Source: a virus | Strand: one strand, 5' to 3' | IMG/VR virus record: IMGVR_UViG_3300029319_000403 | Span: 1 to 26,606 of that record | DNA length: 26,606 nt | Shown here: one piece after another, positions 3,753-24,943 of the stretch | Position numbering within the stretch: position 1 is the stretch's first letter | Layout: each line of letters starts with the position of its first letter | Translations under genes and position numbers: made by a program | Notes under the pieces: generated by a model | Told to the model about the DNA's origin: nothing | The model's database searches: none | The model's input: the letters and a program-made list of their open reading frames with translations, nothing else

Positions 3753-5076
3753 ATCTATCCTTTGTGAATTTAATAGTTGGTTCTTGTCTAAGTTTATTTC
3801 TATAACCACTAAAACCTATTCTAACACCCCAACCTAAGTGTTCGATAATGTCTTTTTTAGTAACTGATTTTTTCGTATGAATAAAATCAACTATTTTTTT
3901 GTAGCTATCTGTTTTTTGTTTTATTGTTTTTAAATTTAATATTGTTTCATCAAGCATATTATTAAACTGAGTTATCGCAGATTCCCACTTACACTCTTTA
4001 AATCTATCTAATGAACGTTTAGAATATTCCTCTCTAATTGATACATCATCTAAAACCTCTTCTAACTTTTCTAAAAAGTCATTACTATCGTAATAGATAC
4101 CTGCAGAACTTGCAAGTTCACAATAGTAATCAGCATTTAAAAATAAGTAAGGAACACCTACACTCATACCATCCGTAGCTGATACAGCCCATCCACTGTA
4201 TTTCTGTTTTGCACATACACCAATGTAACAAGAAGATAACTTAGAAAAATATCCGAATCTATCGTATTTATCATTTGTTAAATATTCTCTACCCTCAGTA
4301 GAATCTGCAAGTGGAACCCATACCTCAAAGTCTTGTCTTTGTTCCCAAAGTTTATCCATTTGTTCTAAAAACCACGGATAGTTTTTGTATGTGTGAGGGC
4401 GATGATTGAATACGATAATTTTTTTATCTGTAGTTTGGTTCTCGTATTTTGGAATCTCCCAACCAAGATATTGTGGTTCAAGAATCTCATCTAATCTTTT
4501 AACTACACTATTATTAAAATGGTTTCTAGCATTTTTTAGAATTAACTTCTTCTGTCCTTGTGTATTTATACCACACTTATCCATCTCTAAAATACCTAAG
4601 AAGTTTACATCCATCATAGTCATACTATAGTTTGTAATCTCAGGAAACTCAGTCCAATGGGTGTACCCAATAAATCTTGGTTCCATATTTGTATTATTTA
4701 TGATTGCATTTTTTAGTTGTAAAGTATGTTCAGGCAAATGAGAATACACAATATCATAATCTCTTTTTTTCCATTGTAATGCTTTTACTATTGTATCATA
4801 ATCAAAATGAGTTCTCATAGCATTTGGGTATGATGGTAATGGTAATACTAATTGTTCTGTATTAGGAAAATCTAAACTATTAATATGATGTGGTGAAAAT
4901 ATTGTAAAATGTATATCATCACGTATCTTATTTAGCTCTCTGATAATATTACATAATACTACGACATAAGAATCTTTTTCTAAATCTTGTTGATATGTTA
5001 TGTTCGGATATACGAGTATATTGTACTTATACTCTTTATCGCTTGTCTTATCTTTTGTAAAATTTAATATATTCAC
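3733..5076 (-). CDS. GT-B glycosyltransferase with C-terminal helical (winged-helix-like?) tail
   Basis: The 447-residue protein starts at GTG 5076, overlapping the Mom-like gene's TGA (GTGA); no in-frame ATG lies near the N-terminus, and the expected first strand (YNILVYPNITYQ) follows the start closely. The second Rossmann-like half begins near residue 220 (KKIIVFNHRPHTYKN). It includes FEVWVPLADS and the donor-site region SATDGMSVGVPYLFLN, followed by a DSNDFLEKLEEVLDD helix, typical of GT-B retaining transferases. From about residue 385 there is an extra domain (YKKIVDFIHTKK, VTKKDIIEHLGWG, then a basic stretch) that looks like a winged helix. A DNA-binding tail on a phage GT-B enzyme, next to a Mom-like gene, suggests glycosylation of modified bases as in T4. 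Sugar and acceptor are unknown, and a surface-glycan role is the alternative. Confidence 0.8.
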   Translation of the reverse strand: MNILNFTKDKTSDKEYKYNILVYPNITYQQDLEKDSYVVVLCNIIRELNKIRDDIHFTIFSPHHINSLDFPNTEQLVLPLPSYPNAMRTHFDYDTIVKALQWKKRDYDIVYSHLPEHTLQLKNAIINNTNMEPRFIGYTHWTEFPEITNYSMTMMDVNFLGILEMDKCGINTQGQKKLILKNARNHFNNSVVKRLDEILEPQYLGWEIPKYENQTTDKKIIVFNHRPHTYKNYPWFLEQMDKLWEQRQDFEVWVPLADSTEGREYLTNDKYDRFGYFSKLSSCYIGVCAKQKYSGWAVSATDGMSVGVPYLFLNADYYCELASSAGIYYDSNDFLEKLEEVLDDVSIREEYSKRSLDRFKECKWESAITQFNNMLDETILNLKTIKQKTDSYKKIVDFIHTKKSVTKKDIIEHLGWGVRIGFSGYRNKLRQEPTIKFTKDRYETTNS

Positions 5077-5693
5077 GAAAATATCTTTCTTGTCTTTTTA
5101 TCTAGTGGTAAAATGTAGATGTGTTTTGGTGGTAGTGGTTCAGTCCAAATATTCTCATCACCTTTTTTCATACGTTGTCTAATATTTTCAAACTTAGGAC
5201 TTTTCTTAGTTAACATTCTGGCGTGATATTTCTCACCATCAGCTATCAACATCCTACTCGGTTTTGTCATCCCTAAATGTATAAAGTTAGTTGCTTTGTA
5301 TATAACACCCTCGTGTCCTTGAAAAGTATCCGCATAGGACAGAATAAGCTTGTAATTTGTATGCTTTTTTAACCAACTAATGGCTTTACCAATAAAGTAA
5401 CTTTCTGTATTCTTGACTGTATCATCAATACAACAAAGTCTGTTTAACTCGATAACCCTATCAGGTGTTTCTGGCATATAACTTTCTGCAACACCAGCCA
5501 TAGCTGGTATTCCAAACATCATAGCACCAATTAATTTTGGTATCCCAAACTTTCCACTTGGTGAAAATAATCCGAAACAATAACTAATATGTAAACCTCT
5601 TACACTTTTTGAGTAATGATTTTTTCTAACAAAATCTTCTATTGCATTTGTAGGTACTTTTTCTACAAAATAATCTGTAACTTTATCTTCCAA
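5073..5693 (-). CDS. mom-like: Mom-like DNA adenine modification protein
   Basis: This 206-residue protein matches the pattern of phage Mu Mom, a GNAT-fold enzyme that converts adenine in DNA to an N6-carbamoylmethyl (acetamido-type) derivative and so protects it from restriction. Visible landmarks: NHYSKS (25-30), the hydrophobic strand PKLIGAMMFGIPA (52-64), VIELNRLCC (80-88), and SYADTFQGHEGVIYKATNF (119-137), the most characteristic block. A basic C-terminal tail follows. The start is TTG 5693, with AGGCG upstream; no ATG is available before the conserved N-terminal motif. It overlaps the DUF4338-like gene by 11 bases and the glycosyltransferase by four, so translation of all three is probably coupled. 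Mu Mom needs host Dam for expression; no GATC control region is obvious here. Substrate base and chemistry are inferred from the family. Confidence 0.8.
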   Translation of the reverse strand: MEDKVTDYFVEKVPTNAIEDFVRKNHYSKSVRGLHISYCFGLFSPSGKFGIPKLIGAMMFGIPAMAGVAESYMPETPDRVIELNRLCCIDDTVKNTESYFIGKAISWLKKHTNYKLILSYADTFQGHEGVIYKATNFIHLGMTKPSRMLIADGEKYHARMLTKKSPKFENIRQRMKKGDENIWTEPLPPKHIYILPLDKKTRKIFS

Positions 5694-6882
5694 CTTCGCC
5701 TATATATTTTTCTCTTGTTTGTTCCCAATCTAATCCTATGATATCTCCATAGAATAAAATGTCATCTTTTAACTTGTTGGAAGTTAACAATTTTTCATAT
5801 CTTTTACAAGCCTTTTTTTTCCACCAATCCATAACACCATCTACATCTTGTTCAAATCTTGGTTTTAATCTTAACTCACTTTCAGATATTTCACCTCTTA
5901 GGTATTCCCTACTATTTTCATAGTAAGTTAGGTAGAATACGCCACGTTTAAATCCGTGTTCATATGCAGTTGTCTTTATCCCTAACTCTTGAAATATAAG
6001 ATTTAATATTCTTTGTTTTACACCCGTAACAGGACCTGAATCCCTATCTTTACTTTGTATGTGTTTTGCATACTTTTCTGATTTATTATCTTTGTACCAA
6101 TCGTGCCACTTCTGAAAAAAATCATCATCAGGTTTTAATGAAATTCTACCAGCAGATTCACCAAGTGTTTTCCAATAAGGAATACCATTATACATAGAGT
6201 GTATACCATATAGTGATGTGGTAGTAACTCCAACTAACTTCTCTCCATATAACTCTTCCCATTGTTCTCTAAACGTTTTAGTAGATATCAATGCTGCGAT
6301 TAATTTACCACCTAAGAAGTTAAATCCAAATGGTTGTGTAGAACATATGGTTGTAGCTATAGTAGAGTTTTTTAATTTACCATCGGTTAATTTATTATCT
6401 TTACTCCAACCAATATAAGAATCTCTAGCACTAATAGCTATAACATCGGAACCAAGACATATTACACCAAGTATCTTATTACTTGTCTCATCCATAACAA
6501 TAAACTTTACGTTTCTACCTGGATTAGCTGTAAACTCCATCGTATGAATAAGTCTACGAATAAGAGTCCAATATTCATTTTGTCTTGAATCACCTTGTTT
6601 GATTGGAATGATTTTTGGTTTTATTGATTGTATCTCTGCTAGTGTTGTTTCTCTATCTAATAAATTTGTTGGTTTCCATAACTTAGGTTTAATCGTATGA
6701 ATCTTGCTAGCTTTTTGTCTAATTTCATAATCATTATGATTAAACTCTTTCCACTTTTTATAAAGTGTAGATTCTTGGACACTCATAGTTTTAAGAAAAT
6801 CCATATGTTCTATGAATTTTTGCTTTTCATCTTCGTAGATGAACTTATCTGGATCCTCGAAAAAGTTTTCGAATAACTCCAT
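5683..6882 (-). CDS. DUF4338/DruA-like protein, partner of the Mom-like gene
   Basis: This 399-residue protein has a pattern I associate with DUF4338, the domain of Druantia protein DruA, and with uncharacterised phage relatives. Key blocks are SARDSYIGWS (151-160), STQPFGFNFLGGKLIAAL (181-198), LVGVTTTSLYGIHSMYNGIP (216-235) and WKTLGESAGRI (237-247). The order RDxYIGW, then a GGKL helix, then YNGIPYWKTLG parallels the acetyltransferase-like layout of Mom (compare GVIYKATNFIHLG), so the two neighbours may share a fold. N-terminal (1-100) and C-terminal (250-399) parts are charged and helical; the latter has CKRYEKL and WEQTREKYIGEVGR. ATG 6882 follows AAGG. The stop overlaps the Mom-like start. 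Biochemical function is unknown; a role in DNA modification or recognition is inferred from position and resemblance. Confidence 0.6.
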   Translation of the reverse strand: MELFENFFEDPDKFIYEDEKQKFIEHMDFLKTMSVQESTLYKKWKEFNHNDYEIRQKASKIHTIKPKLWKPTNLLDRETTLAEIQSIKPKIIPIKQGDSRQNEYWTLIRRLIHTMEFTANPGRNVKFIVMDETSNKILGVICLGSDVIAISARDSYIGWSKDNKLTDGKLKNSTIATTICSTQPFGFNFLGGKLIAALISTKTFREQWEELYGEKLVGVTTTSLYGIHSMYNGIPYWKTLGESAGRISLKPDDDFFQKWHDWYKDNKSEKYAKHIQSKDRDSGPVTGVKQRILNLIFQELGIKTTAYEHGFKRGVFYLTYYENSREYLRGEISESELRLKPRFEQDVDGVMDWWKKKACKRYEKLLTSNKLKDDILFYGDIIGLDWEQTREKYIGEVGR

Positions 6883-9051: not shown

Positions 9052-9789
9052 TTAACTCCTTATTGCTTTACTAAACCAAATCTGTAGTGATAATCTATCC
9101 ATAGCCATATTTGATGTTTTGGCTACCCTATGATTTACACCTGTTCTCAAAGTTACAAGTTTGTTTGGTGTTGGCTTTATCCACCAACCATCTATAACCT
9201 CACCTTGAGGTGCATCTTCACCTGCTTCAATTAGTAACTCTCCGTGCCACCTATCCATCCAAGTACTATGTACGTAAAAGCTACCTGCACCAACTCTTTG
9301 CATTTGTTTTGCATTGAAAACCTCTTGCTCGTTTTCATCTAAATCATAAGCACGAGCAGGATCGTTATGCCAATCAATACCACCACCTGGTGAATTCCAT
9401 TTGTAACAATGTATATCTAAGTAATCAAAATCTGAATCAAATGTTGTTACAAACTCTTGTTTCATTTCAAATATACGCCTAACAAGTGGTTGAAAATAAA
9501 CATTCAATTCTTCTATAGAATATGGTATCTCATCATATACTTTTTGATTAGTATCAAGTTTTTTATGTGAGTATGGATTGTATTGTTTATGCACAAACCC
9601 ATTTTCACCAAATATACCAACTTGCATTATAGTAGTTTTATTATAATCTGATACAAGATTTCTATCCCATATAGCTCTCTCGTGAGTATGCTTCATAGTA
9701 TCTGTTACATCGATAAATTTATTATAACAAAACCATTGAACATTTTGAAAGTCTATTTCAGATAATAGATTTTTTGTTACTGAAACCAT
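9052..9789 (-). CDS. 2-oxoglutarate/Fe(II)-dependent oxygenase
   Basis: The 245-residue protein has the HxD...H iron-binding triad of this superfamily: H141 and D143 in GGIDWHNDPA, H220 in RTGVNHRVA. The 2-oxoglutarate-binding arginine is R232 in MDRLSLQIWF. YLDIHCYKWNSPGGG precedes the triad, and the strand GSFYVHSTW lies between the ligands. Such enzymes hydroxylate proteins, lipids, small molecules or DNA bases. The overall look is that of the prolyl-hydroxylase-like oxygenases common in T4-like marine phages. It lies between the head-associated genes and the envelope genes, so context does not reveal the substrate. A link to the DNA-modification block 2 kb away is possible but not shown. 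ATG 9789 lacks a clear ribosome site. Confidence 0.85.
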   Translation of the reverse strand: MVSVTKNLLSEIDFQNVQWFCYNKFIDVTDTMKHTHERAIWDRNLVSDYNKTTIMQVGIFGENGFVHKQYNPYSHKKLDTNQKVYDEIPYSIEELNVYFQPLVRRIFEMKQEFVTTFDSDFDYLDIHCYKWNSPGGGIDWHNDPARAYDLDENEQEVFNAKQMQRVGAGSFYVHSTWMDRWHGELLIEAGEDAPQGEVIDGWWIKPTPNKLVTLRTGVNHRVAKTSNMAMDRLSLQIWFSKAIRS

Positions 9790-9799
9790 TTATTTTTTT

Positions 9800-10600
9800 T
9801 TATTGATTAGGATTTTTTAAGTAGTCCCTTGCTTTATTTATGTCATTACGAACAACTGCAATTTTATTCATCCACCAGCTTGGTAGTGAATCTTCATCAT
9901 TTAACATAGTTAGCATTTGTAATACTTCTTGTGCATCCTCTGCAACTAACTTCATACTTCTTTTAGCACTAGCTACATCCGTGTGTCCATCTTCAGTTAT
10001 TGATTCTTGTATAGCCACTTGGAATCCACCTTTAGAACTTTTTAAAACAACCATATTTTTAGTTATGGTACTTTTTCTTAAATTTTTCATAGATTGTTTA
10101 TGTACTGCACTTTGAGCATCTTTTAAATTTTTATATATCTTTGGTAATCTTTTAAACTTCATAGTTTCAGCTGATTCGTTCTTTATACAATTAGGATATC
10201 TTTTACCAAATAATACTTTTGTTTTACGAGTAGGATGTATCTTATATCCTTTCCAACACTTTTCACATAAGCATTGTTTACCCTCTTTTAATTCTTCATC
10301 TTCTTCACCTGTACCACCTGGTGATTTTAATTTATAAGTTGGGTCTTCAGCTGACATAACATAACCACAACCCTCAAGTTCTAATCTAATTAATTCTCTT
10401 AACTTATCTAAGGTTTCTTGTCTTACCTTGTTAGGTAATCCCTTGTGTTTTGTTGAAGCCATTTTTTTAGTTGATTTCTTTTTCATTGATTTAGCTGCAT
10501 CTTTTACAGCCTTACTTACTTTACTCGCTGGAATCTCACCCTTTTTATAAGCGTGAACCAATCCCATAAATCTTTGTTGTGCTTTACTTACTGATGGCAT
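9800..10600 (-). CDS. Modular head-region protein: DUF3008-like N-terminus, Cys module, C-terminal helical domain
   Basis: Three parts are visible in 266 residues. Residues 1-60 (MPSVSKAQQRFMGLVHAYKK, then ASTKHKGLPNKV) match DUF3008. Residues 107-139 form a Cys module (KQCLCEKCWKGY, then FGKRYPNC) that recurs at the start of the 412-aa protein (11977-13215). Residues 204-266 (DGHTDVASAKRSMK, LPSWWMNKIAVV) are a helical domain. LKE (104-106) stands before the Cys module and ITE (201-203) before the last domain; both fit the (I/L/V)-x-E cleavage pattern of T4-type prohead proteases. I infer, without proof, that the protein is packaged in the prohead and cut at module borders. The ATG follows the upstream stop by one base (TAA-T-ATG) and no strong ribosome site is seen. 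Confidence 0.7.
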   Translation of the reverse strand: MPSVSKAQQRFMGLVHAYKKGEIPASKVSKAVKDAAKSMKKKSTKKMASTKHKGLPNKVRQETLDKLRELIRLELEGCGYVMSAEDPTYKLKSPGGTGEEDEELKEGKQCLCEKCWKGYKIHPTRKTKVLFGKRYPNCIKNESAETMKFKRLPKIYKNLKDAQSAVHKQSMKNLRKSTITKNMVVLKSSKGGFQVAIQESITEDGHTDVASAKRSMKLVAEDAQEVLQMLTMLNDEDSLPSWWMNKIAVVRNDINKARDYLKNPNQ

Positions 10601-10964: not shown

Positions 10965-11980
10965 TAGAACTTTCCTTGTAGTATTCTGCCAGCTTTGGCT
11001 CCAACACTTCTAGCATCATCCTCTGCACGATAGTAGGCTAGTTTTCCACCCTTTTTCTTTTCTTGTTCCTCATCATATTTTGATGATTCAATATATCTTC
11101 CGAAAGCACCATATAAATCTTCCATAGCACGTGTTATTTGAGACATATACTCGTATACCTTTTTCTCTTCATTTGTAGTCCAACTATTATACTGCTTTAG
11201 TAACCTATCAAACTTAGCTGATGGTTTACCACCGATAGCAGCGGCTATCAATCCATTGGTAAAATCTTTTGCTGCTTTTACTTTAGCATTCACTTTATTT
11301 TTATCTTTGTATGTCTGGCGAAGTAAATTTCTATATTTTCTTTCGTTTTCATCTCTGAACTCACCATCGGTTTTCCACCTCCAAGAACCCTGACCAACTG
11401 CTTGTCTCATTTCTCTTTTTTCTTTACCACCCATATAAGGCATATTTTCATCTAAAGTAACTTGATAGTAAACAATACCAGGTAGTTGTTGTACAGCAGA
11501 TAAACTTTGGTATCCAAACTTATCGATACCAAAAGACATCTTATCATCACCATATACTGAACTTCTTATGCCAGCTTGCATCCCCATACCTTTTCCTGTA
11601 GCCCCCTTACGTTTTCTGTCTACATTTCTCCAAGATTTTGTATACCAAAGTGGTTTACCATCTTTTAGTACAATAAGTGCAGTGCCTTTTTCTACTTGTT
11701 GAATCGAATTGTAATCAGCCCATCTTCTTTTATTTGGTAAATCAATCTTTTTTGTTGCGACTGCAAACTCTATACCTTTTTTCTTAGGTTTTGCATTCTT
11801 TTCGATTTGGCTATCTCTAACCTTATCCCATTGAACACCAAGTTTTGCACCATAGGTGAAGAAGTCTCTATCTAAACCTTGAAAGTTATTCACCATTTTT
11901 CTAAGAATGGAACTTCTAAATGCTTCAGCTAATATACCACTAGCTTTTGATTCTCTTATAATATCTTTTAATTTAATCAT
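10964..11980 (-). CDS. Putative internal head protein with capsid-targeting-like leader, 338 aa
   Basis: ATG 11980 (MIKLKDIIRE) was chosen over 12007 because it gives the ATGA overlap with the polyprotein stop and the same leader as the 120-aa neighbour. I8-R9-E10 would be the prohead-protease site. The body is basic and mixed alpha/beta: about 95-150 contain TALIVLKDGKPLWYTKSW and GKGMGMQAGIRSSVYGD, followed by AVQQLPGIVYYQVTLDEN, and a long helical C-terminal half (TNEEKKVYEYMSQITRAM) follows. No catalytic motif is recognised with confidence. The strand-rich middle with Arg/Trp residues recalls nucleotide-processing or transferase folds, but this is weak. Size would suit an injected effector comparable in role to T4 Alt; that is speculation. 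Confidence 0.65.
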   Translation of the reverse strand: MIKLKDIIRESKASGILAEAFRSSILRKMVNNFQGLDRDFFTYGAKLGVQWDKVRDSQIEKNAKPKKKGIEFAVATKKIDLPNKRRWADYNSIQQVEKGTALIVLKDGKPLWYTKSWRNVDRKRKGATGKGMGMQAGIRSSVYGDDKMSFGIDKFGYQSLSAVQQLPGIVYYQVTLDENMPYMGGKEKREMRQAVGQGSWRWKTDGEFRDENERKYRNLLRQTYKDKNKVNAKVKAAKDFTNGLIAAAIGGKPSAKFDRLLKQYNSWTTNEEKKVYEYMSQITRAMEDLYGAFGRYIESSKYDEEQEKKKGGKLAYYRAEDDARSVGAKAGRILQGKF

Positions 11981-13215
11981 ACTTTTGGTGTCCCCATTGC
12001 TTTCCACAATCTTAAAATTAAATTGATAAGTTGTTTTGTATTCATCTTATTCATTTTTTCTTTACTTGAGTCGTTTACCTTATTCCAAACTTGAGTCATC
12101 ATATTTGCAGTAGTTCCATCTACAAGAGTACCACCAATCTTTTTAGCTTGTTTGTTTTTTGCCACATCAAGAACTTTTTTTATATTACCTCTTGGTTCTA
12201 CGGCTTCATTTACGGATTCTTTCAAATCAGGCAATCCTTTCATCTTTGACATATCTCTAACAAATTGTTTGTAAGCTGATGGGTTTGCTTTATAGTTTTT
12301 CATTACACCTGCTAATCCATCCACATCCATCTCAATAGCCATTTGTATAACATTCATCATCTTACCCTTTGCCCACGGAAATGCTTTTTTGATTGCACCA
12401 ATTTTATCCACTTTTTCATTTACGGATTCTTTCATACCAAGTTTTTTTAGAGTTGTTTTCATTCTAGCTCGTTGTTCTCTACTGTTTACAACCACGTTAC
12501 CAGCTTCATCTCTCATTATTTCATCAAAAGTCATAGCTATATCTTCAATTTTTGATTTAGGAACTCTTGGCATCTTTTTTCCTAAATATTTTACCACCTT
12601 TACAAAGTCACTTGATTTTTTAGGATTATATCGTATAAACTCTTTATTTAAATCAGCAACGAGTGTAGAGGCTATTCTATCTAACTTACCTTCATTTACT
12701 GACTCAACTTTGATACCTAACATTTTTGGTAAACGAATTGTCAAATCCATTAGTTCGTGTGATTTCATTTTATCCATTTTGCCACGAAAACTTTTCATCT
12801 TTGGATGATTATAAATTGCTATAATTTCTTTAGCAGTCTTACCATTCATCCTAGTGCCTGATACAGTGCCATACTTATTTTTATCTGCTAAATTCTGAAT
12901 TGATTTTATTGTTTTCGATTCTTCATTTACAGATTCTTTTACAGGCTTCTGTCCTAACTTTTTTCTGATAACATTTATTTGTTGTTTAATTTTTTTCTGT
13001 GCTGGACTACCAGGCATCTGTTTCATAGCTTTTGCTAATAATATAACTTGTTGCATTTCTAATGAACTCATTTTTCGTTCAGCTTCTTTTACAGATTCTC
13101 TTCGCTTTCCTGCTTTAGATTTTTTTACACAATTAGGATATCTTTTACCGAATAAAGTTTTGTATCCTCTCTTGACGTACCCTTTCCAACATTTTTCACA
13201 AAGACATTGTTTCAT
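11977..13215 (-). CDS. Predicted internal-head polyprotein with five ESV(N/K)E cleavage-like sites
   Basis: The 412-residue, Lys-rich protein opens with a Cys module (KQCLCEKCWKGY, FGKRYPNC; residues 2-29). It then carries ESVKE at 40-44 and ESVNE at 94-98, 171-175, 263-267 and 333-337. V-N-E fits the (I/L/V)-x-E rule of T4 gp21-type proteases, and the gp21-like gene lies 0.6 kb upstream in the same operon. Cutting there would release six pieces of about 44-92 residues, each a compact basic helical unit. Pieces 3 and 6 are homologous: over 64 residues they share GT, GxTA, N, KMxKM, RLxK and a terminal KV. I infer a polyprotein of capsid core or internal peptides produced during head maturation. 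The start has GGAGAGGAAG upstream and overlaps the preceding stop (TAATG). Confidence 0.8.
   Translation of the reverse strand: MKQCLCEKCWKGYVKRGYKTLFGKRYPNCVKKSKAGKRRESVKEAERKMSSLEMQQVILLAKAMKQMPGSPAQKKIKQQINVIRKKLGQKPVKESVNEESKTIKSIQNLADKNKYGTVSGTRMNGKTAKEIIAIYNHPKMKSFRGKMDKMKSHELMDLTIRLPKMLGIKVESVNEGKLDRIASTLVADLNKEFIRYNPKKSSDFVKVVKYLGKKMPRVPKSKIEDIAMTFDEIMRDEAGNVVVNSREQRARMKTTLKKLGMKESVNEKVDKIGAIKKAFPWAKGKMMNVIQMAIEMDVDGLAGVMKNYKANPSAYKQFVRDMSKMKGLPDLKESVNEAVEPRGNIKKVLDVAKNKQAKKIGGTLVDGTTANMMTQVWNKVNDSSKEKMNKMNTKQLINLILRLWKAMGTPKV
12205..13098 (-). repeat. Five dispersed 15-base repeats encoding ESV(N/K)E
   Basis: Copies lie at 12205-12219, 12415-12429, 12691-12705, 12922-12936 and 13084-13098. 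The first two are identical on the plus strand (ttcatttacggattc), and the third and fourth differ by a few bases. They are in frame inside the 412-aa gene and encode the predicted protease sites, so they are protein-level repeats rather than a mobile or regulatory DNA repeat. Confidence 0.85.
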
Positions 13216-13605: not shown

Positions 13606-13845
13606 CTACGCCTTATTTAGAAATAATTTTAGTTCAACTAATAAATCTTTGTAAGCTTTCATAATAGAAACTGCTTTTTTCTTATCACCACCTTTATCAG
13701 CTTCTTTTATCATCATCTTCATATTCTTTTCAAGTGAGGCAATATCTTTTAGTGCTGACTTCTTTGCACCTGCGAACATTGGTGGTGCTTCATCAAGTCT
13801 AAAGTCTTTCCATTGTTCCCACATTTTCTTTGTATACTTTGGCAT
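13606..13845 (-). CDS. Small head-region protein, 79 aa, with leader and LxE site
   Basis: The N-terminus MPKYTKKMWEQWKDFRLDE, then APPMF, has L17-D18-E19 in the position of a prohead-protease site, like capsid-targeting leaders. The remaining 60 residues are a Lys-rich amphipathic helix pair (KMMIKEADKGGDKKKAVS, LLVELKLFLNKA). It begins on the stop of the protease gene (TAATG). A core or internal protein comparable in position to T4 gp22/gp67-68 is plausible; no specific family is recognised. Confidence 0.7.
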   Translation of the reverse strand: MPKYTKKMWEQWKDFRLDEAPPMFAGAKKSALKDIASLEKNMKMMIKEADKGGDKKKAVSIMKAYKDLLVELKLFLNKA

Positions 13846-14492
13846 TATAGACCTCTTATGATATCGTTAGTTATAGCTTCCACTTTACAATACTTACCAC
13901 ATTCATTTGGATTTCTTTCATCCATTCTCACACTTTCTGTAATTACACCCTCATTTGTTTTACCTTGTGGATATAAAAATGCACCTTGTGTAGATGGGTT
14001 GGATACAAAATCAAAAGCAATAAGTTCGAAGTCAGGCTGAACTGCAACTGTTTGTTTACCTGTTTCTTCATCTTCTTTGATTGCTTCTACTGAACCCATA
14101 CCTCTTGAAGAGATACCAAGTTTTATACCTGAACGGAATAATTCTTTTAGGATATTACCACTTGGTGTTGGTAAAACTTCTACTTCACCTACCAAGTCGT
14201 CATTTTCCCACCACATCTTTTTGATGTTATGTGAAACATTCTGTAAATTGACTACTGAAGACTCAGGATGGTCTAACTCACCCATAGCTCTTCTTTCAGT
14301 TATAAAAGAGTCATTATACTTTTTAGCTTCACGTACTAAAATTTCTTTTGGATATATTCTTCCATTTTGGTTTTCAGCGTTTGCTCTTTGTAGAACACCT
14401 TTTACCAAAAGCTTACCACCACCCATGCTTTCATTTATAGTTTCGGGCATGACCTCAAAAGGTAAGTAATCTATTAGAAGTTGTTTATTCAT
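13845..14492 (-). CDS. 21: Prohead core protease (gp21-like, S/H type)
   Basis: The 215-residue protein shows the T4 gp21/herpes-assemblin-type protease pattern: ENQNGRIYPKEIL (41-53), MGELDHPESSVV with catalytic H75 (70-81), WENDDLVGEVEVLPTPSG (95-112) and KLGISSRGMGS with catalytic Ser at 128 or 129 (124-134). FELIAFDFVSNPSTQGAFLY (155-174) closes the domain. The enzyme cuts scaffold and capsid proteins after (I/L/V)-x-E during head maturation and then digests itself. Candidate self-cleavage sites are INE (19-21), TNE (179-181, looser fit) and ITE (184-186). A C-terminal Cys-containing tail (NPNECGKYCKVE) follows. It overlaps its neighbours on both sides by one base (TAATG) and stands two small genes after the core-region proteins, as in T4. 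Confidence 0.93.
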   Translation of the reverse strand: MNKQLLIDYLPFEVMPETINESMGGGKLLVKGVLQRANAENQNGRIYPKEILVREAKKYNDSFITERRAMGELDHPESSVVNLQNVSHNIKKMWWENDDLVGEVEVLPTPSGNILKELFRSGIKLGISSRGMGSVEAIKEDEETGKQTVAVQPDFELIAFDFVSNPSTQGAFLYPQGKTNEGVITESVRMDERNPNECGKYCKVEAITNDIIRGL

Positions 14493-16204: not shown

Positions 16205-18010
16205 CTACTTCTTTTTCGTGTCGTTTAGTTCTTCTTTATATTCATTTTCAATAGAATCAGCTTCATTCAATAAACTAAAGTCTTTTTTATCCATCATTCC
16301 TTTTAATTTATCAAAATGTGCTAATGCTAATTGTGGGTTATATTGATTTTTTTTGTCTTTCGCACCTAATGGGTCTCTACCTCTCGCACCACTATCTTGT
16401 CCATACTTACCACCCTCTTTAGGTCTACCTGCTCCTTTGAATCCACCAGGAGGCGAACCACCTGTGTCATCTAATTCATGTCCTGTCCTACCTGCTTGGT
16501 TATCACTTGGTGTTCCTTGTGCTTCACCACTCTTTGCAGGATCGTTACCCTCATTTTCTATTTGGGAACGTCTAAACTTTTGTTTGAAATCAAACACAAT
16601 TTGGTTATCTAAGTCCTTTATATAATCGTCTGTAAATCCAAATATGTTTTTATATATCCATTCTGAAGAAACTAATCCATCTTGTAACATAGATGACGCT
16701 AATTGTGTCTTACTACTCCATAATTCAACCTTTTCAGTTTCATATATCGTAGATGGATTTGTCAAACTCAAATCAAAATTGACTAACTCTTCATCTTGAA
16801 AACCTTGTGCATACAAGTGTATGATAGCTATCTTAGTCAACTCAGATACTGTAATTCTTTGTATTCTTTCAATAGTTCTTGCGAATCTAACATCTTCAGC
16901 TGCCAATGTTGCTTTACTACCAAGTGACTCCTCATATCCTAAGAATGCTTTTGGAACTCTAAGTGCCGCTAACATTTTATTCTTTAGATACTCAATATCT
17001 TCTGTAGCTTCATATGTCAAACCAGGTAGTGCATCTATTTGTGTACCACTATCTCCACCACGAACAGGTAAGAAGAAGTCCTCTGTCAAATTCTGCATAT
17101 TATACTTCAAGTTATAGTCACCTGTATCTTGGTCGATAACAGGTGTCTTTTTCATCTTGTTTATAATCTTTTGCATATAGTTATCAATTTCAGCTGGTGG
17201 TATATTTCCAATATCCAACTTGAATACTCTCTTTTCAGGTGCTCTCATAATTCTATGTATCATCATAGCATCTTCCATAAGAGTTAGCTGTTTGAAAACT
17301 TTTCTCGCTTGTTCAATCATTGACTTACCATAAGGAAGATAATTTGAATCAGAAAGTAATCTAAAGTGTGCTACTTGATAATTTTCTAATTCTGCATTCT
17401 TTGGTGCCTGAACTGAATACTTTGAACCCATATCACCACCTGATTCAAGTACGAACTTTACATAGTTAGGATTCTCAGGATCGATACCCTCAACTCTAAC
17501 AGTATCGTATGGTGAAAGTGGTTGTACATTTGATATTCCATACTTCTCACTTATTTCAAGATACAAAAAGAAATCACCATACTTACACATATTACGAACC
17601 CACGGCCATAGATTGAATTCTATATTTAGAATATCATAAAAAAGATTATGAAGTATTTTTTTGATTTGTTCGTTATCAGTTTTGATTTCCAACACATCAC
17701 CATATTCTGATTTCATTGTTGATTCATCAGCGTAAATATCTAATGCTGAAGAAACGATACCATCAGTATCCATCGATTCATAATCTTTGAATAATCCCAA
17801 TCGTAATGCTTTTTTATGAACTGCATCCGTAGTTACGTTCGCACCATAACCTGAAAACATTCTTGTATATCTGTCTATTAAATTATTTTTAGCAAATGCT
17901 TGTACTTTATCTGTATCAGCTATACGAAGTTTTTTACCACCAACGTTTCTTACGATAACGTTAGAAGAAAATAATCTTCGTAATCTACCAAATAATGATG
18001 TATCAGCCAT
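16205..18010 (-). CDS. 20: Portal vertex protein (gp20-like)
   Basis: The 601-residue protein has the T4 gp20 pattern: early TDAVHKKALRLGLFKDYESM (61-80) and MDTDGIVSSALDIYADEST (80-98), DILNIEFNLWPWVRNMCKYG (126-145) and RLLSDSNYLPYGKSMIEQAR (217-236). The hallmark is HRIMRAPEKRVFKLDIGNIP (252-271). The channel region continues past residue 300 (LKNKMLAALRVPKAFLGYEE). The C-terminal 100 residues are a Gly/Pro/Asp-rich linker and a charged helix containing LLNE, then ADSIENE. It forms the twelve-subunit ring through which DNA enters the head. ATG 18010 has AGTGAGG upstream, 13 bases after the terminase stop. In T4 the sheath and tube genes lie between 17 and 20; here they are missing. Confidence 0.93.
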   Translation of the reverse strand: MADTSLFGRLRRLFSSNVIVRNVGGKKLRIADTDKVQAFAKNNLIDRYTRMFSGYGANVTTDAVHKKALRLGLFKDYESMDTDGIVSSALDIYADESTMKSEYGDVLEIKTDNEQIKKILHNLFYDILNIEFNLWPWVRNMCKYGDFFLYLEISEKYGISNVQPLSPYDTVRVEGIDPENPNYVKFVLESGGDMGSKYSVQAPKNAELENYQVAHFRLLSDSNYLPYGKSMIEQARKVFKQLTLMEDAMMIHRIMRAPEKRVFKLDIGNIPPAEIDNYMQKIINKMKKTPVIDQDTGDYNLKYNMQNLTEDFFLPVRGGDSGTQIDALPGLTYEATEDIEYLKNKMLAALRVPKAFLGYEESLGSKATLAAEDVRFARTIERIQRITVSELTKIAIIHLYAQGFQDEELVNFDLSLTNPSTIYETEKVELWSSKTQLASSMLQDGLVSSEWIYKNIFGFTDDYIKDLDNQIVFDFKQKFRRSQIENEGNDPAKSGEAQGTPSDNQAGRTGHELDDTGGSPPGGFKGAGRPKEGGKYGQDSGARGRDPLGAKDKKNQYNPQLALAHFDKLKGMMDKKDFSLLNEADSIENEYKEELNDTKKK

Positions 18011-18023
18011 TTTTTACCTCACT

Positions 18024-19601
18024 TTATAAGAGCCACTCTAAGGACTCTTGATTTTTTTGAACATCCCATGACCAAGAATCGTTCTTGGCTTCCGATGGTG
18101 TGTATACGCCCTCATGAGCGTTTACATTTGTCAAAGTTTTCTTTGTAAGTTCAACACCCTCTGCTCTCAATCTCAAAGCAGTTTCCCTAACCCACAAACC
18201 TATGCCAAACGACATTACCAAGTCATCATTATATCCCGACATAGCTTCTGCTTTTTGTCCGTTGTATATAAATACAAACAACTCATCAACCAACCTTTGT
18301 GATTGAACTGTAACTGCTTTTTCCCTAAAAAATTCTTCTAACTTTGCGACAACTAATGGTCTTGTTTTCATAGACATTGAAAAGCCAGGAGTCATCTGTC
18401 TTTCCATTCTATTTATCTTATTAGTCATCTGCCTTTCGGTGTCTACATACTGTAAATCTTTACTTGCATAAAACAAGTTTGGATAACCTCTATCAATAAC
18501 TGATTGTATAGCAGCCCAACCAATATTATTGTTTTCTATAATTAGTAATGCTTCGTTATATTCATTCGAAATGTTCACTAATAAGTTACCAAAATCTCTT
18601 GTCGATATCTTACCTTTATATTCAGCTACTTGTTTCACGTCTTGTACATCTATAACGTGAAATGCAGAGTAGTCAGTTCCGTCTCCTCTACTAACGTCAG
18701 CACATACTATATAATCTTTTGTATAGTTTGGTGGTTCCCATACCCAAACATTACTATCTATACCTCTTTTTTCTATCGGTTCACAAACTGTTTTTTCTTT
18801 TATCTCTTCTAATATCAAACCATCTATAACATTTTGTCCTGAAGTGATGAAGTCACAATCACATTCTTGTGCTGCCAATGACGGACCAAGTAATCTATCT
18901 TGTTCATCTCTCCAATCTTGCTCTCTATCAGGATGAACAGTCCAATGTAATTTGATAAAATTGAAATCATTCAATCCATCTTCTGCATCCATCCAAGTTC
19001 TATGGAACCAATTACCAACACCATTAGGTGTTGAGAGAGCGATACATTGTCCACCTGTCGATAACGTCTGAGATGCTGCTGCCCATATACCATCAATCTT
19101 ATCGATAAACGCTGCCTCATCAAGTATCAGTAATGATAGAGCTTCTGAACGACCACTATCCTCACCACTTGATACAGCTTTTATTTGAGAACCATTCTTG
19201 TATCTCAAACTCAATTTGTTGTCTTCAACACAAGGTTGCTTCAACCACTTAGGTAAGTTTGAGTGCATCACCCTAACTTTTGTTACCAAGTTTTTAGCCA
19301 CCTCTTGTTTAGTAGCAATAACCAAGATGTTTTTATCTTGATGAAACGTCATCATCCATAAACTATAACCTGCTGTAAGAGTTGAGATACCTAATTGTCT
19401 TGCTTTTAGTATAACGTTCAATCTATTTTGATTGAATTGGTCTACAGTTTTCTCTTGAAAATCGTATAAATGAAATGGTATCTTACCCTTTATCGGATGT
19501 TGTATAAAAGAATACTTTTTCAAAAAGTATACAGGATCTTGTGCACACTTTACATATTCTTTTCTGATTACATCTTTAAAATTTTTGTTTTTATTCTCCA
19601 T
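18024..19601 (-). CDS. 17: Large terminase subunit (gp17-like packaging ATPase/nuclease)
   Basis: In 525 residues both terminase domains are complete. ATPase: LYDFQEKTVDQFN (45-57), the deviant Walker A KARQLGIST (66-74), Walker B LLILDEAAF (157-165) and coupling motif ALSTPNG (188-194). RNase H-like nuclease: DYIVCADVSRGDGTD with D302 (296-310), LLIIENNNIGWAA with E356 (352-364), and YNDDLVMSFGIG with D459/D460 (457-468). It drives DNA into the prohead through the portal and cuts the concatemer. T4 gp17 is 610 residues; this protein lacks some of the N- and C-terminal extension. It overlaps the 102-aa gene by 11 bases. Confidence 0.95.
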   Translation of the reverse strand: MENKNKNFKDVIRKEYVKCAQDPVYFLKKYSFIQHPIKGKIPFHLYDFQEKTVDQFNQNRLNVILKARQLGISTLTAGYSLWMMTFHQDKNILVIATKQEVAKNLVTKVRVMHSNLPKWLKQPCVEDNKLSLRYKNGSQIKAVSSGEDSGRSEALSLLILDEAAFIDKIDGIWAAASQTLSTGGQCIALSTPNGVGNWFHRTWMDAEDGLNDFNFIKLHWTVHPDREQDWRDEQDRLLGPSLAAQECDCDFITSGQNVIDGLILEEIKEKTVCEPIEKRGIDSNVWVWEPPNYTKDYIVCADVSRGDGTDYSAFHVIDVQDVKQVAEYKGKISTRDFGNLLVNISNEYNEALLIIENNNIGWAAIQSVIDRGYPNLFYASKDLQYVDTERQMTNKINRMERQMTPGFSMSMKTRPLVVAKLEEFFREKAVTVQSQRLVDELFVFIYNGQKAEAMSGYNDDLVMSFGIGLWVRETALRLRAEGVELTKKTLTNVNAHEGVYTPSEAKNDSWSWDVQKNQESLEWLL

Positions 19602-20438: not shown

Positions 20439-23400
20439 TTACCTCACAAACTTTAGAGCTCCTAATATTTGATTTACAGGTGCAAATGCGCCCGTAAACT
20501 TGTACATATCACCATTATATTTGAAAACCAAACCCTCTGATGGCACAATAGAGTCTGAACCACCTATATTTTGTATTTTTTCAAGATTTTTCTTTAATAA
20601 ATTGAGAGTTTTGATATCTTTTGATGACTTGAGTGTTGATATTGCCGACTTCAAGTCTTTTTTGATGTTTTTGACTGCTTTTTGAGGGTTTACTGCCAAA
20701 TATCCGTCTAAATTCTTCAATATTTCAGCACCTAACTCTAAAAATAGTAGTTCAAATGGTTTGATGTGTTCTTGTTGTAACTTTTTCAAATCAAATTTAT
20801 CTGTGGCCTTAGACCATTCCAAAAATTTATCGTGTTTTATATTTTTTTTATCTAATCTAAACGATTTGTCTAAGAAAGCCCATCGTCTTGTCAAAGAATC
20901 TAAAACATTTTTTGGTATTTTGTATTTCATTTGTTTTGACGCATTGAAAATATACTCTCTCCAATACATCTCGTGATACATACCCAATGTATCATTATCC
21001 TTCAGTTTATAAATAGTCTGTAATTTTCGTAACTTGCCTAAAAAATATTTTTTCTTTTTAGTGTAGTCTTGCACCTTTGGTAAGTTCAGTATAACAGGCT
21101 TAGATATCTTAAATCTCTTCTGAATGTTCTGATTTATCTGTCTAATCATCCCCTCTAACATCCTTGCACTATCTTTTACTTGTTTTTTAGTTTGTCCTGA
21201 CTCATCTACCTCTACACTACCATGAAAAAACAACTCTGATACGTCATAGTCTATAACATTTGCTGTCTTTGGATAAACTATCTCTAAATTCATCCAACGT
21301 TTACCCTCACCAAATACTTTTTCTTTTTGTTTTTCTGATAATTTATTTACTGCAGACTCTAAATCTTTCATCGCACCCACAAATGCTTTCTCAACATCTC
21401 CTCTACCTGCAAACTTTGATTTCATACCTTTTACGTCAAGTGATGATTCACCAAAGTTTTTTAGATTACCCTTGTTTCTTGCAGCGACTAACTTATTATT
21501 CTTCCAACTAATCATTAGATTTTGTCCATCTAACTTTTCAGTAACCTTATCTTCTCTGTTTAGTTTTCCTTGTAAACTCATATCGATTATGTTTTTGAAA
21601 TCACCAAATGTAAGATGATGATTATCAAATGGATGTGACATATGTCCTGCCGCTCCTCCCATAAGCAATAACTCCTTTTCTTGTAACTCTTGTGTCCACC
21701 AATCAGGTGAAAACAATTTTGTTTCTGATAAACTCTTTTGATATTTTTGTGCTGCTTTATTACCTTTATTCTTTGATACCCACCTAACTGCACTTTGTTT
21801 AGACACCATCTTTTTTCTACCACGTGGATTTGGGTTCTTTACAGTATCAGGCATTTTAGTCTTTTGTGGTTCTTTCTTTTTGTCTGCTCCCTTTTTCTTT
21901 TTATATGCACGTATCGCACCAAACCCTAATCCTGCAGCCATTGTACCAACATTACCTAATATCTTTGTGTAAGGTGCTGTCAAACCTGTAGTAGCACCTA
22001 CAGCTGTAAGAACTAAAAACTTAGTTCCCATCTCACCACCAAACATATCAGCAAGTGAATAATCTCCACCCGAAGCGGCTGATGCTACTGCTGATAAATC
22101 TAAATCATATTCGGGATCACCTATAAATGTCATCTTAGTCCAAGCATAAGTAACAGCGGATGCTGCACCTAAACCCATAACCTTTTTTAGTTTTGGATTT
22201 TTTTGTAAGAAGTTATCCAACTTCTTCAATCCTTTTTCTTTCTTTTGTCCAAACTTTGTACCTGCTAACTTTTTAGCGATTTTATTAGGAACTACATTTA
22301 GAATTTTTTGATATGCTTGGAAACCCCTTTTAGCACCATCTAATACTTTGTCTACACTAAAATCATTTAGTTTAGCAACAACAAAAGTATTTTTGTTGTT
22401 CATAGTTTGTTTTATTTTACTGAAAGGTTGCTTTGCTTTTTTACTAAAATCTTTTAGAAAGTTATCAAATCTTATACCCTCTTCTATCGTCATAGTTTCA
22501 AACAAGATAGATTCGGATAGTTTTTTTCTATCTGTATTTTGTTGACTACCATCTGCACCTGCTGCTACAGGAGCTAATACTGATACACCTGTTACTTCTG
22601 TATCTGATTTCAATCCCATCCACTTTACAACTTCAAAACCTATGTTTTGTAGAACTCTGTTATTGATATGATTTTTATAACGGGCTATTGATTTACGTGG
22701 TGATAATGTAGTACCATGTGCAACTGCAGAAACAATTCTTGTTTTCAACAAAGGATCGTATGCAGGGTCTTGTGCTTTATTACTAACTATATAATCTATA
22801 ACCTCTGCACCTAAATCACCCAACCAATCTTTACTAACATCCATATAGTCAGCAAAGTTTGCATAAAACGATACAGGTCCATCATCCACGTGTGCGATTG
22901 TAGACACGTTACTTTCTGATAAAAACTTTTCTATGATTTCATTCATAGATTTAAATCTTGTAGTCAATAACTTATACATTGTATTGTCTGAATATCCAAA
23001 TAACTTTTTGAATAATTTTTTTCTATTAGGTTCTGATATTTTATTACTACCCAATACTTTTCTCATTACCGTACCACTAACATCCTCACCTGCTAACTTT
23101 ACTGAAACGTGAGGTGCTATCATCACATAACCATTTTCTAAAAACCCATTCATGTCTCCACCTTTTTTATAAGGTTGAAAGTATTTACCACCTGATAATC
23201 TACTTGCATCTTTTTTACCAAGTGCGAATACTGCGGCAGTTTCATTTTCATCAAAGTATTTGAAAACTTCTACAGGTTTATATGGTTGTTTTGATTTGAA
23301 TATATTTTTGGCAGGTACACCCATCTTTACCATATGTGCTTTTTTCTCTCTGAAGTTTAGTGGGTGACGTGGTGGTTTCTTGATATCGGATGTGACGATA

Positions 23401-23672
23401 TAGACATCATCAAATTGTCTTTTCAATCTATCGAAGACTGCTTTGTGATGAGGACCGAATGGTTGAAAACGGCCAGGATATATTGCTATTGTTTTTTTGA
23501 TTTCTTTTTGTTCAGTTACATCCTCTGAATATACGGACCTTTGGCCATTCTTGTCAAGCTTTTTTTTCGCTTTTTTTATCTTTTTTTGACTTGGGGATGG
23601 TAATGTTCCTGCGGGAGCTCCAAACTCTTCTTTAAGAAAAGGTGATATTAACCATTTGGTAAGTTTGTTCAC
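20439..23672 (-). CDS. Multidomain protein: NMN-adenylyltransferase-like + hydrophobic region + polynucleotide-ligase-like domain
   Basis: The 1077-residue protein starts at GTG 23672. Domain 1 (60-205) is a HxGH-type nucleotidyltransferase: AIYPGRFQPFGPHHKAV (62-78) and VSGTVMRKVL (198-207, cf. ISxTxxR), as in NMN adenylyltransferases. Residues 254-385 form a separate unit (VDDGPVSFYANFADY). Residues 495-590 are Gly/Ala-rich and hydrophobic and could insert in a membrane. Domain 4 (651-1077) has covalent nucleotidyltransferase motifs: KLDG with nucleophile K713, RNKG (732-735), WMNLEIVYP (793-801), EGLVFK (1046-1051) and K1058 in MYKFTGAF, as in RNA/DNA ligases. LSE occurs at three of the domain borders (251-253, 385-387, 648-650) but also inside domain 4 (778-780). 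Sitting directly upstream of the packaging genes, it may be a structural or packaged enzyme. Its activity is inferred from motifs only. Confidence 0.78.
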   Translation of the reverse strand: MNKLTKWLISPFLKEEFGAPAGTLPSPSQKKIKKAKKKLDKNGQRSVYSEDVTEQKEIKKTIAIYPGRFQPFGPHHKAVFDRLKRQFDDVYIVTSDIKKPPRHPLNFREKKAHMVKMGVPAKNIFKSKQPYKPVEVFKYFDENETAAVFALGKKDASRLSGGKYFQPYKKGGDMNGFLENGYVMIAPHVSVKLAGEDVSGTVMRKVLGSNKISEPNRKKLFKKLFGYSDNTMYKLLTTRFKSMNEIIEKFLSESNVSTIAHVDDGPVSFYANFADYMDVSKDWLGDLGAEVIDYIVSNKAQDPAYDPLLKTRIVSAVAHGTTLSPRKSIARYKNHINNRVLQNIGFEVVKWMGLKSDTEVTGVSVLAPVAAGADGSQQNTDRKKLSESILFETMTIEEGIRFDNFLKDFSKKAKQPFSKIKQTMNNKNTFVVAKLNDFSVDKVLDGAKRGFQAYQKILNVVPNKIAKKLAGTKFGQKKEKGLKKLDNFLQKNPKLKKVMGLGAASAVTYAWTKMTFIGDPEYDLDLSAVASAASGGDYSLADMFGGEMGTKFLVLTAVGATTGLTAPYTKILGNVGTMAAGLGFGAIRAYKKKKGADKKKEPQKTKMPDTVKNPNPRGRKKMVSKQSAVRWVSKNKGNKAAQKYQKSLSETKLFSPDWWTQELQEKELLLMGGAAGHMSHPFDNHHLTFGDFKNIIDMSLQGKLNREDKVTEKLDGQNLMISWKNNKLVAARNKGNLKNFGESSLDVKGMKSKFAGRGDVEKAFVGAMKDLESAVNKLSEKQKEKVFGEGKRWMNLEIVYPKTANVIDYDVSELFFHGSVEVDESGQTKKQVKDSARMLEGMIRQINQNIQKRFKISKPVILNLPKVQDYTKKKKYFLGKLRKLQTIYKLKDNDTLGMYHEMYWREYIFNASKQMKYKIPKNVLDSLTRRWAFLDKSFRLDKKNIKHDKFLEWSKATDKFDLKKLQQEHIKPFELLFLELGAEILKNLDGYLAVNPQKAVKNIKKDLKSAISTLKSSKDIKTLNLLKKNLEKIQNIGGSDSIVPSEGLVFKYNGDMYKFTGAFAPVNQILGALKFVR

Positions 23673-24049: not shown

Positions 24050-24943
24050 CTAACCCTTTACTTTTCTCCAACCACCACCTGCTGCTTTGTATTGTTTTGC
24101 AGCCCAAGCGTTAGCATAAGCTGATGGATATACATCAAACTTCTTTTTTGCTTGTGCTTTGTAATAAGCCCACTTAGCGGGTTTTGTTGGTACATTTTTT
24201 TCTAAAAATAATCCAAGTTTTTGTTCAGCTAGTTTTTTGTCCATAATAGACTCCCTCTTCTTTCTACCTTGACAATGTGCTCGTTGACTAAATCCTTTTG
24301 GATTGCTACAATCTATACTACGTTTATACTTAGCAGTCCATTTTTCGTTAATTCTTTCTACATTATAAATATCACTACAACCACACTTATGCTCTTTTAC
24401 AAATGAAATTTCGTTTTTAGCTTTAGTCTTTTTCTTCATTTTATTTATGTAAGCTCTGTACACTGCAGCCTGAGATGTTTTACCCATCTCTCTTGCTCTT
24501 TGTTCCATAGCAACTGCTGCCTGTATCTTATGTGCGTGTGATTTACCACTACTTCTTATTTTACTAACAGATGCTTTTGCATCTGCTACAGTAGCAAATT
24601 TCAAACCTTTTATCGTACCCTTTGGGTTTTCATCAGTATACAAATCTGAATGAGATTTAGAGTTACGATGTTGTCCTTTTTTTCTTGGAACTCTTTTTGC
24701 TTCATCAACCTTATCATAATAGTCTTTAGGATGAAACTTCATTTCGACAACCTTTGCATCTTTTTTGATACTTTTACCATCTACCAACACTTCAACAGGA
24801 TATGGTTTGTCAGGTTTATTATACCAATAAGCCATATCATAACCACCATTTTTTAGAAGTCTGACAAGTAGTCCTCTATCATAATCTTTATCTTCAGCTT
24901 TGAGAACTTTTATCTCACCTCTTGGTAAAACTAAATCAGCCAT
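24050..24943 (-). CDS. Modular protein: DUF5824-like domain, CSNPKGF Cys module, YPSAYAN module
   Basis: The 297-residue protein has separable parts. Residues 1-75 are a beta-rich N-terminus (VLVDGKSIKKDAKVVEMKFH). Residues 84-167 match what I know as DUF5824 (RVPRKKGQHRNSKSHSDLYT, SHAHKIQAAVAMEQRAREMG). Residues 186-230 form a Cys-rich stretch (CGCSDIY, DCSNPKGFSQRAHCQGRKK), and 253-297 end in KKKFDVYPSAYANAWAAKQY plus GGGW. VDE (79-81) and INE (198-200, ERINE then KWTAKYK) fall between parts and fit the prohead-protease rule. I infer another segmented head-associated protein. It overlaps its upstream neighbour by one base (TAATG). Confidence 0.72.
   Translation of the reverse strand: MADLVLPRGEIKVLKAEDKDYDRGLLVRLLKNGGYDMAYWYNKPDKPYPVEVLVDGKSIKKDAKVVEMKFHPKDYYDKVDEAKRVPRKKGQHRNSKSHSDLYTDENPKGTIKGLKFATVADAKASVSKIRSSGKSHAHKIQAAVAMEQRAREMGKTSQAAVYRAYINKMKKKTKAKNEISFVKEHKCGCSDIYNVERINEKWTAKYKRSIDCSNPKGFSQRAHCQGRKKRESIMDKKLAEQKLGLFLEKNVPTKPAKWAYYKAQAKKKFDVYPSAYANAWAAKQYKAAGGGWRKVKG

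Follow-up and report, generated by a model that had tools for sequence, protein, structure and literature searches.

The 1077-amino-acid (aa) protein encoded on the minus strand beside the packaging genes of a 26,606-nucleotide viral stretch (positions 1 to 26,606 of the 26.9-kb IMG/VR record IMGVR_UViG_3300029319_000403; hereafter the window) joins an NMN adenylyltransferase (NMNAT)-like domain to a ligase-like domain. Our leaning is that it is a polyvalent protein that would be packaged into the phage head, processed by the prohead protease, and used to deliver an RNA-repair and NAD kit. This reading builds on the domains and their conservation, the shuffling of modules among relatives, the enrichment of a cleavage motif in the linkers, recombination at module borders, and synteny with packaging genes, all of which are read directly from the sequences; from these we infer the packaging, cleavage, and injection of the chain, as well as its catalysis and substrates. 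Feature coordinates are collected in Table 1.

The open reading frame (ORF) runs without an internal stop from 23672 to 20439 on the minus strand, and the plus strand is riddled with stops over the same positions. Its GTG start coincides in alignment with the ATG start of relatives (MNKLTQWLIDPYVKEEFGAPAGV...), and proteins from many loci can be aligned with the protein over its full length (63-99% identity). Moreover, purifying selection acts on each of the four core segments, with ratios of nonsynonymous to synonymous substitution (dN/dS) of 0.11-0.14 in the ligase-like and 0.18-0.28 in the NMNAT-like domain. Together, the full-length alignment and the purifying selection exclude a chance ORF. 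An earlier reading of the same DNA (the original prediction) had picked out a set of motifs at these positions, and all of them are present in a real, intact gene, but one that lies on the minus strand: PGRFQPFGPHH (residues 66-76) and VSGTVMR (198-204), a hydrophobic Gly/Ala-rich middle (about residues 500-590), and KLDG (713-716), RNKG (732-735), and EGLVFK (1046-1051).

The nucleotidyl transferase that had been proposed at the N-terminus clearly holds. The domain matches PHROG 395 'cytidyltransferase' (E = 2e-8), and its profile matches the archaeal NMNATs MTH150 (1ej2/4yp5) and MJ0541 (1f9a) at E = 5.5e-6. The predicted model of this part is fair, with a predicted local distance difference test score (pLDDT) mostly of 65-88, and in Foldseek it was matched with NaMNAT, NadM, and PPAT at a probability of 1.00 (E = 6e-4), so that both fold and profile indicate a Rossmann-type adenylyltransferase. 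We therefore regard the NMNAT assignment, as one made by profile and predicted fold, as solid. The domain resembles archaeal-type NadM (MTH150, MJ0541) in its GRFQPF, RxPxxxxEK, and SGTxxR motifs as well, the last of which is present in all 77 of the relatives' domains compared. Unlike NadM, however, the window's clade carries GPHH in place of the catalytic HxGH, for which reason we call the domain NMNAT-like rather than a proven NMNAT; among the same 77 relatives, HxGH is found in 39, GPHH in 37, and GIHH in Microcystis phage Mel-JY01.

In the ligase-like domain, the motifs of this superfamily stand in proper order, namely K713 (motif I), R732, E797 (III), E1046-G1047 (IV), and K1058 (V). The residues K713, R732, E797, E1046, and K1058 are invariant in 121 of 121 homologues, down to 37% identity, and the motif I nucleophile K713 lies in KLDG or KTDG throughout; K713 and the EG motif, whose loss from close homologues had been set beforehand as refuting the original prediction, are thus retained in every one. 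The order of motifs is that of T4 Rnl2 (PF09414), with an EKxxGxN motif I, a downstream Arg, Glu III, EG IV, and Lys V, and T4 Rnl2 also provides the leading PDB fold matches (1s68, 2hvr, and 2hvq, with 1s68 at a probability of 0.84), and an RNA ligase of Lactococcus phage phiQ1 is among the viral fold matches (probability 0.97, E = 0.12). Unlike T4 Rnl2, the domain (i) matches everything below significance, (ii) contains a large helical insertion, located between motifs III and IV, (iii) has a single motif V lysine, K1058 being invariant and its partner position being occupied by Thr (KFT/KYT) where T4 RnlB shows KxK in the alignment, and (iv) has conserved ends of its own, GGAxGHxxHPFD and TGAFAPxNQ. 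A search of PDB sequences with the ligase profile returned chance matches only, and T4 DNA ligase and RnlA were discarded as relatives, ranking 84th and 41st among 96 T4 ORFs. On the strength of the invariant motifs and the weak fold matches to T4 Rnl2, residues 664-1077 are likely a covalent nucleotidyltransferase, and the earlier ligase-like call probably stands, given also the weak matches to T4 RnlB and the phiQ1 ligase; RNA ligase is our best guess at the identity of the domain, short of a demonstrated membership.

Relatives were found by searching IMG/VR with the ligase alignment, which yielded at least 559 confirmed stretches with this domain. Of 50,697 phage records, only three have it (Mel-JY01 and two huge, uncultured phages), so that a family common in (aquatic) metagenomes is rarely met in culture. 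A cellular origin was dismissed, as only seven contigs of metagenome-assembled genomes emerged from a genome-contig search, and these look like binned phage contigs. The large terminase subunit (TerL) of the window is nearest to that of Mel-JY01 (56%), followed by Flavobacterium phage immuto (54%), so that the window comes from a T4-like aquatic phage.

Architectures, linkers, and synteny were counted in a subset of the relatives' loci (L-numbered where cited). The core arrangement, NMNAT-DUFA-(hydrophobic module)-ligase, where DUFA is a conserved domain of unknown function and the optional hydrophobic module is termed MID (24 matches), is mixed with shuffled other modules, and 27 architectures occur among complete members. 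The order is NMNAT-DUFA-ligase in 68 loci and NMNAT-DUFA-MID-ligase in 14, it is permuted in L120 (DUFA-NMNAT-ligase) and L122 (ligase-NMNAT), and L009 and L013 have a split gene, with the break falling between the NMNAT-like domain and DUFA. In L009, the second half begins in a TAATG overlap with a targeting-like start of its own, MKTLSEDLIKRFLKE/S (here and below, a slash marks a module border). Upstream of the NMNAT-like domain, a kinase (AAA_33/Zeta-like) is fused in 22 loci and encoded as a stand-alone gene in 8, for example immediately preceding the big gene in L010 and L028; further modules at this side are a CCA-adding enzyme (4), HD (6), PAP2 (2), ParB-like units (6), and basic segments. 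The CCA-adding unit is clear-cut (PDB 1miv, E = 5.8e-32; tRNA nucleotidyltransferase PHROG, E = 1e-62), and the kinase module has L-seryl-tRNA(Sec) kinase as its sole PDB match (E = 3e-5), along with a polynucleotide-kinase PHROG (E = 7e-6). The original prediction had suggested repair of damage done by NAD-depleting or tRNA-cutting defences; the fusion of a CCA-adding enzyme, a kinase, and HD to the core in relatives favors the RNA-repair part of this idea, while activity is not assured, given GPHH and the missing motif V lysine.

Several members depart from the common form. Mel-JY01 has a compact version of 639 aa with only the two enzyme domains, in which IIAE/GG precedes the ligase-like domain, and in a huge uncultured phage (L042, LR756500.1) the ligase domain is a separate 421-aa gene, with a NadV-like NAPRTase and KptA encoded elsewhere in the same record. 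In six loci (L018, L020, and L021 among them), about 390 residues of unknown function lie between DUFA and the ligase-like domain, a segment in which (L018, L020, L021) no Pfam family scored above the cut-off. In L009 (1741-4926), DUFA and MID are separated by a ParB-like unit (LLAGNTRLMA), and ParB_N was found in 1 of the 43 members scanned with Pfam. A full NARP2-type NAD salvage was rejected: among seven related records, only LR756500, where the ligase is separate, has NadV/NAPRTase, which does not support a complete route from nicotinamide encoded by the phage. KptA as a link between NAD and RNA repair was rejected too, since it appears in the two huge-phage records alone, with one match below the cut-off.

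Complete members start with M-KLTEWLTKPFLxE or MSLKKLVEEITKPVIDE, the family consensus being MNKLTxWLxxPFLxE, and these N-termini resemble in length and end those of T4 IPII/IPIII (MKTYQEFIAE) and Alt (MELITELFDE); the resemblance is clear by eye in most members. In T4, unrelated proteins enter the head by means of capsid-targeting peptides, which are removed there (PMC9026906). Like T4 IPI-IPIII and Alt, the protein would pair basic segments and cargo destined for the host with a short targeting peptide at the N-terminus that has xxE at its end, and, as in T4, an S77-type prohead protease is encoded in the same genome. The adjoining packaging genes reported earlier were confirmed by PHROGs matches of the portal protein and TerL, and in 84 of the 85 loci with room, the same strand carries TerL within 8 kb downstream. 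The structural role that had also been suggested for the protein is better recast as one of head cargo, with an N-terminus that resembles capsid-targeting peptides.

T4 gp21 cleaves after L/I-X-E (PMC9026906), and this motif is concentrated between the domains. In 126 distinct linkers between core domains, which we compared with domain cores and with shuffled linkers, [L/I]xE reaches 6.0 per 100 aa, as against 0.29 in the cores, and occurs 176 times versus 105±8 after shuffling. Further, a [LIVM]xE is found no more than 12 aa from the module start in 86% of 365 cases, compared with 26% for random positions. Typical borders are VNE/QKEIKK before the NMNAT-like domain, FLSE/S or LLKE/S before DUFA, and LLIE/GGA before the ligase-like domain; in the window the last of these reads LLLM/GGA with LSE and LQE just upstream, so that the site is displaced here. 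The same borders are used in recombination. L001, with ~98% DNA identity to the window, has 76 extra residues cleanly inserted between SVYSED and VTE/QKEIKK, and L002, which carries the same insertion, is almost the same as the window as far as residue ~640 and from the KSLSE site onward has a different ligase module (65% protein identity, dS of 1.9). The insertion and the ligase swap indicate that modules are gained and exchanged at predicted cut sites.

These data bear on whether the protein might instead be made late and stay whole while it acts in the infected cell, a single enzyme with two activities, NAD+ synthesis and the joining of nucleic acid, and with linkers that are merely flexible and acidic. 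The domain order kept in most members could reflect a working complex of this kind, as could the compact two-domain form of Mel-JY01, but an uncut enzyme fits poorly with (i) linkers enriched and cores depleted in [L/I]xE, (ii) permuted orders and genes split between domains, (iii) a ligase swapped as a unit, and (iv) close synteny with head genes. We consider it unlikely; given linkers with capsid-protease-type sites, the single protein doing both jobs that was originally envisaged is probably not the working form, and separate pieces are likely.

Equally improbable, in our judgment, is that the protein belongs to the structure or core (scaffold) of the head, with degenerate enzyme-like domains that serve for binding or space-filling. 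Such a protein would suit the position among head genes, the basic segments of the type found in T4 internal proteins, the replacement of HxGH by GPHH, and the loss of one motif V lysine. Against this, the five ligase residues are strictly invariant down to 37% identity and SGTxxR is universal among the relatives compared, which indicates that chemistry has been kept; half of the family has a canonical HxGH, and the fused CCA-adding, kinase, and HD modules belong to enzyme families.

In the packaged-cargo reading that we prefer, the N-terminal peptide would act as the capsid-targeting sequences of T4 internal proteins do, drawing the chain into the prohead core, where the S77 prohead protease of the phage would then cut the linkers after [L/I]xE. 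The units so freed, namely the NMNAT-like enzyme, DUFA, a membrane- or core-associated MID unit, and the ligase-like enzyme, would enter the host together with the phage DNA. There, the ligase may act with the kinase, CCA-adding, and HD units of relatives (encoded in the same chain or in adjacent genes) to repair RNA cut by host defences, probably tRNA, and the NMNAT-like unit may rebuild NAD+ that is drained by defences or spent in repair. A ligase, a kinase, and a CCA-adding enzyme are described as a phage counter to tRNA-cutting defences in passages of PMC7824862, and NAD supply as one to NAD depletion in passages of PMC9503650. More tentatively, with somewhat less than even confidence, we suggest that a large group of T4-like aquatic phages follows a true polyprotein strategy, in which a repair/NAD chain would be targeted to the prohead and cut in trans, with modules exchanged at the cleavage sites.

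An alternative with a similarly low probability concerns the target of the ligase fold, which, instead of joining RNA, might attach a nucleotide to DNA, to proteins, or to the 5' ends of RNA, with the NMNAT-like domain making the donor, so that host targets are modified in an Alt-like manner rather than RNA being repaired; the KFTGAFAPxNQ end and the long helical segment that separates motifs III and IV are unlike known RNA ligases, and the known head-packaged enzyme of T4, Alt, modifies host proteins (PMC9026906; passages of PMC5512222), but the company of CCA-adding enzyme, kinase, and HD points to RNA ends, and the nearest folds outside the family are RNA ligases.

Several observations weigh against the packaged repair kit. 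The absence of the second motif V lysine and the presence of GPHH both amount to non-canonical active sites. For the ligase-like domain, Pfam RNA_ligase PF09414 aligns at motif I with an E of 0.02, below the cut-off, the PDB fold matches are not significant (E at least 0.17), hhalign of the motif I region with T4 RnlB gave only P = 0.006, T4 RnlB ranked only fourth by P-value among 96 T4 ORFs in a single-sequence decoy test, and the predicted model scores poorly (pLDDT 63). Neither a kinase nor a CCA module is present in the protein of the window, and NadV, the usual supplier of NMN, occurs in only one of the seven related records, several of which are fragments. An automatic test of the N-termini was modest (28 of 38, versus 18.4±2.4 in shuffles), several starts being misplaced. 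The reversed motif Ex[LI], which in the cores is commoner than [LI]xE (1.25 per 100 aa), is also raised in linkers, albeit less so (144 versus 105), so that their Glu/Leu-rich composition explains part of the signal, but not all of it; moreover, the linker and border counts come from related sequences and are not phylogenetically independent. We found no virion proteome or cleavage data for any family member.

The chain resembles the polyvalent proteins described in passages of PMC5512222, which are long multi-enzyme chains near portal and terminase genes, predicted to be packaged and injected, and it shares their characteristics of at least two enzyme domains, variable architectures, and nearby packaging genes. 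The same passages propose release of those proteins by peptidases inside the chain (zincin, assemblin-like), whereas a Pfam tally of 43 members of the present family contained no peptidase domain, and the candidate protease is the separate S77 enzyme, which would act in trans. T4 cargo consists of one enzyme or small protein per gene, while here many modules are joined with repeated cleavage-like sites. The NMNAT-like domain is fused to a ligase-like domain, in contrast to a phage NadM fused to Nudix in passages of PMC9503650. The jumbo-phage RNA-repair sets in passages of PMC7824862 likewise comprise an RNA ligase, a polynucleotide kinase, and a CCA-adding enzyme, and are interpreted there as repairing tRNA that host RNases have cleaved, but there each enzyme is described as a gene of its own, whereas here the enzymes are strung together in a single chain linked to packaging; in passages of PMC5512222, too, RNA ligases are separate genes of phages. 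The passages of PMC5512222, PMC9503650, and PMC7824862 cited here make no mention of an NMNAT-plus-ligase core, and our literature search, the coverage of which excludes most subscription journals, found no paper on this protein.

Among the neighbouring genes, the one at 24050-24943 carries a basic module with 93% identity over 101 aa to the big protein of L024. A 412-aa protein (11977-13215, minus strand) contains five ESVxE-type repeats separating short units (RRESVKEAE, VKESVNEES, VESVNEGK, MKESVNEK, and LKESVNEA), and is probably another head cargo chain, with prohead-protease-type sites. It shares a KQCLCEKCWKGY...LFGKRYPNC cysteine module with 9800-10600 (minus strand), a case of module sharing by neighbouring genes. 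In the cultured relative immuto, the same place upstream of TerL is occupied by a 907-aa protein annotated as NadR-like (L144, 2106-4829), which by eye has a start of the Pol-beta type, a middle part resembling NMNAT, and HEMIHH as a zincin-like motif, and by an 841-aa protein in which MNESVNEG and LKESLNE are repeated. Elsewhere in the window, all on the minus strand, a Mom-type DNA modification protein (5073-5693; Pfam, E = 3.6e-40) adjoins a DruA-matching protein (5683-6882; E = 4e-29), DruA belonging to the Druantia defence system and the pairing being odd inside a phage, and a 2OG-Fe(II) oxygenase lies at 9052-9789 (Pfam, E = 3e-7).

Table 1. Features of the NMNAT/ligase gene and its packaging neighbourhood in the window
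Feature	Position	Strand	Remarks
Whole NMNAT/ligase gene	20439..23672	-	1077 aa; GTG start; stop codon included
Capsid-targeting-like N-terminal peptide VNKLTKWLISPFLKE (putative)	23628..23672	-	residues 1-15; predicted [L/I]xE cleavage site at end
Basic segment (SPSQKKIKKAKKK)	23511..23627	-	residues 16-54; ends in VTE; 76-aa insert of relatives just before VTE
NMN-adenylyltransferase-like domain	22935..23504	-	residues 57-246; PGRFQPFGPHH, RHPLNFREK, VSGTVMR
Linker and DUFA	22488..22934	-	residues 247-395; FLSE at residue 253; conserved domain of unknown function
MID, optional, mostly helical Gly/Ala-rich module	21723..22487	-	residues 396-650; flanked by TIEE (398) and KSLSE (650)
Ligase-like covalent nucleotidyltransferase domain	20442..21683	-	residues 664-1077; K713, R732, E797, E1046, K1058
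Large terminase subunit TerL, downstream neighbour	18024..19601	-	PHROGs match
Portal protein	16205..18010	-	PHROGs match
Prohead protease, Peptidase_S77 (T4 gp21 family), candidate processing enzyme	13845..14492	-	Pfam PF03420, E = 4.6e-27
Neighbour gene with basic module (PRKKGQHRxSxSHSDLYTDENPKGTIKGLKFA)	24050..24943	-	module fused into big protein of relatives

The proposed reading would explain a large aquatic-metagenome family that has so far been labelled only 'cytidyltransferase'. If it is true, RNA repair and NAD supply would be delivered with the phage DNA instead of being made later, and the phage would arrive with repair enzymes ready before any gene expression. Capsid maturation proteases could then release enzymes that are packaged as a polyprotein, which is otherwise a strategy known from viruses of eukaryotes, and the locus would represent a fast-evolving cassette of injected counter-defence enzymes, which could be mined for further enzymes of this kind.

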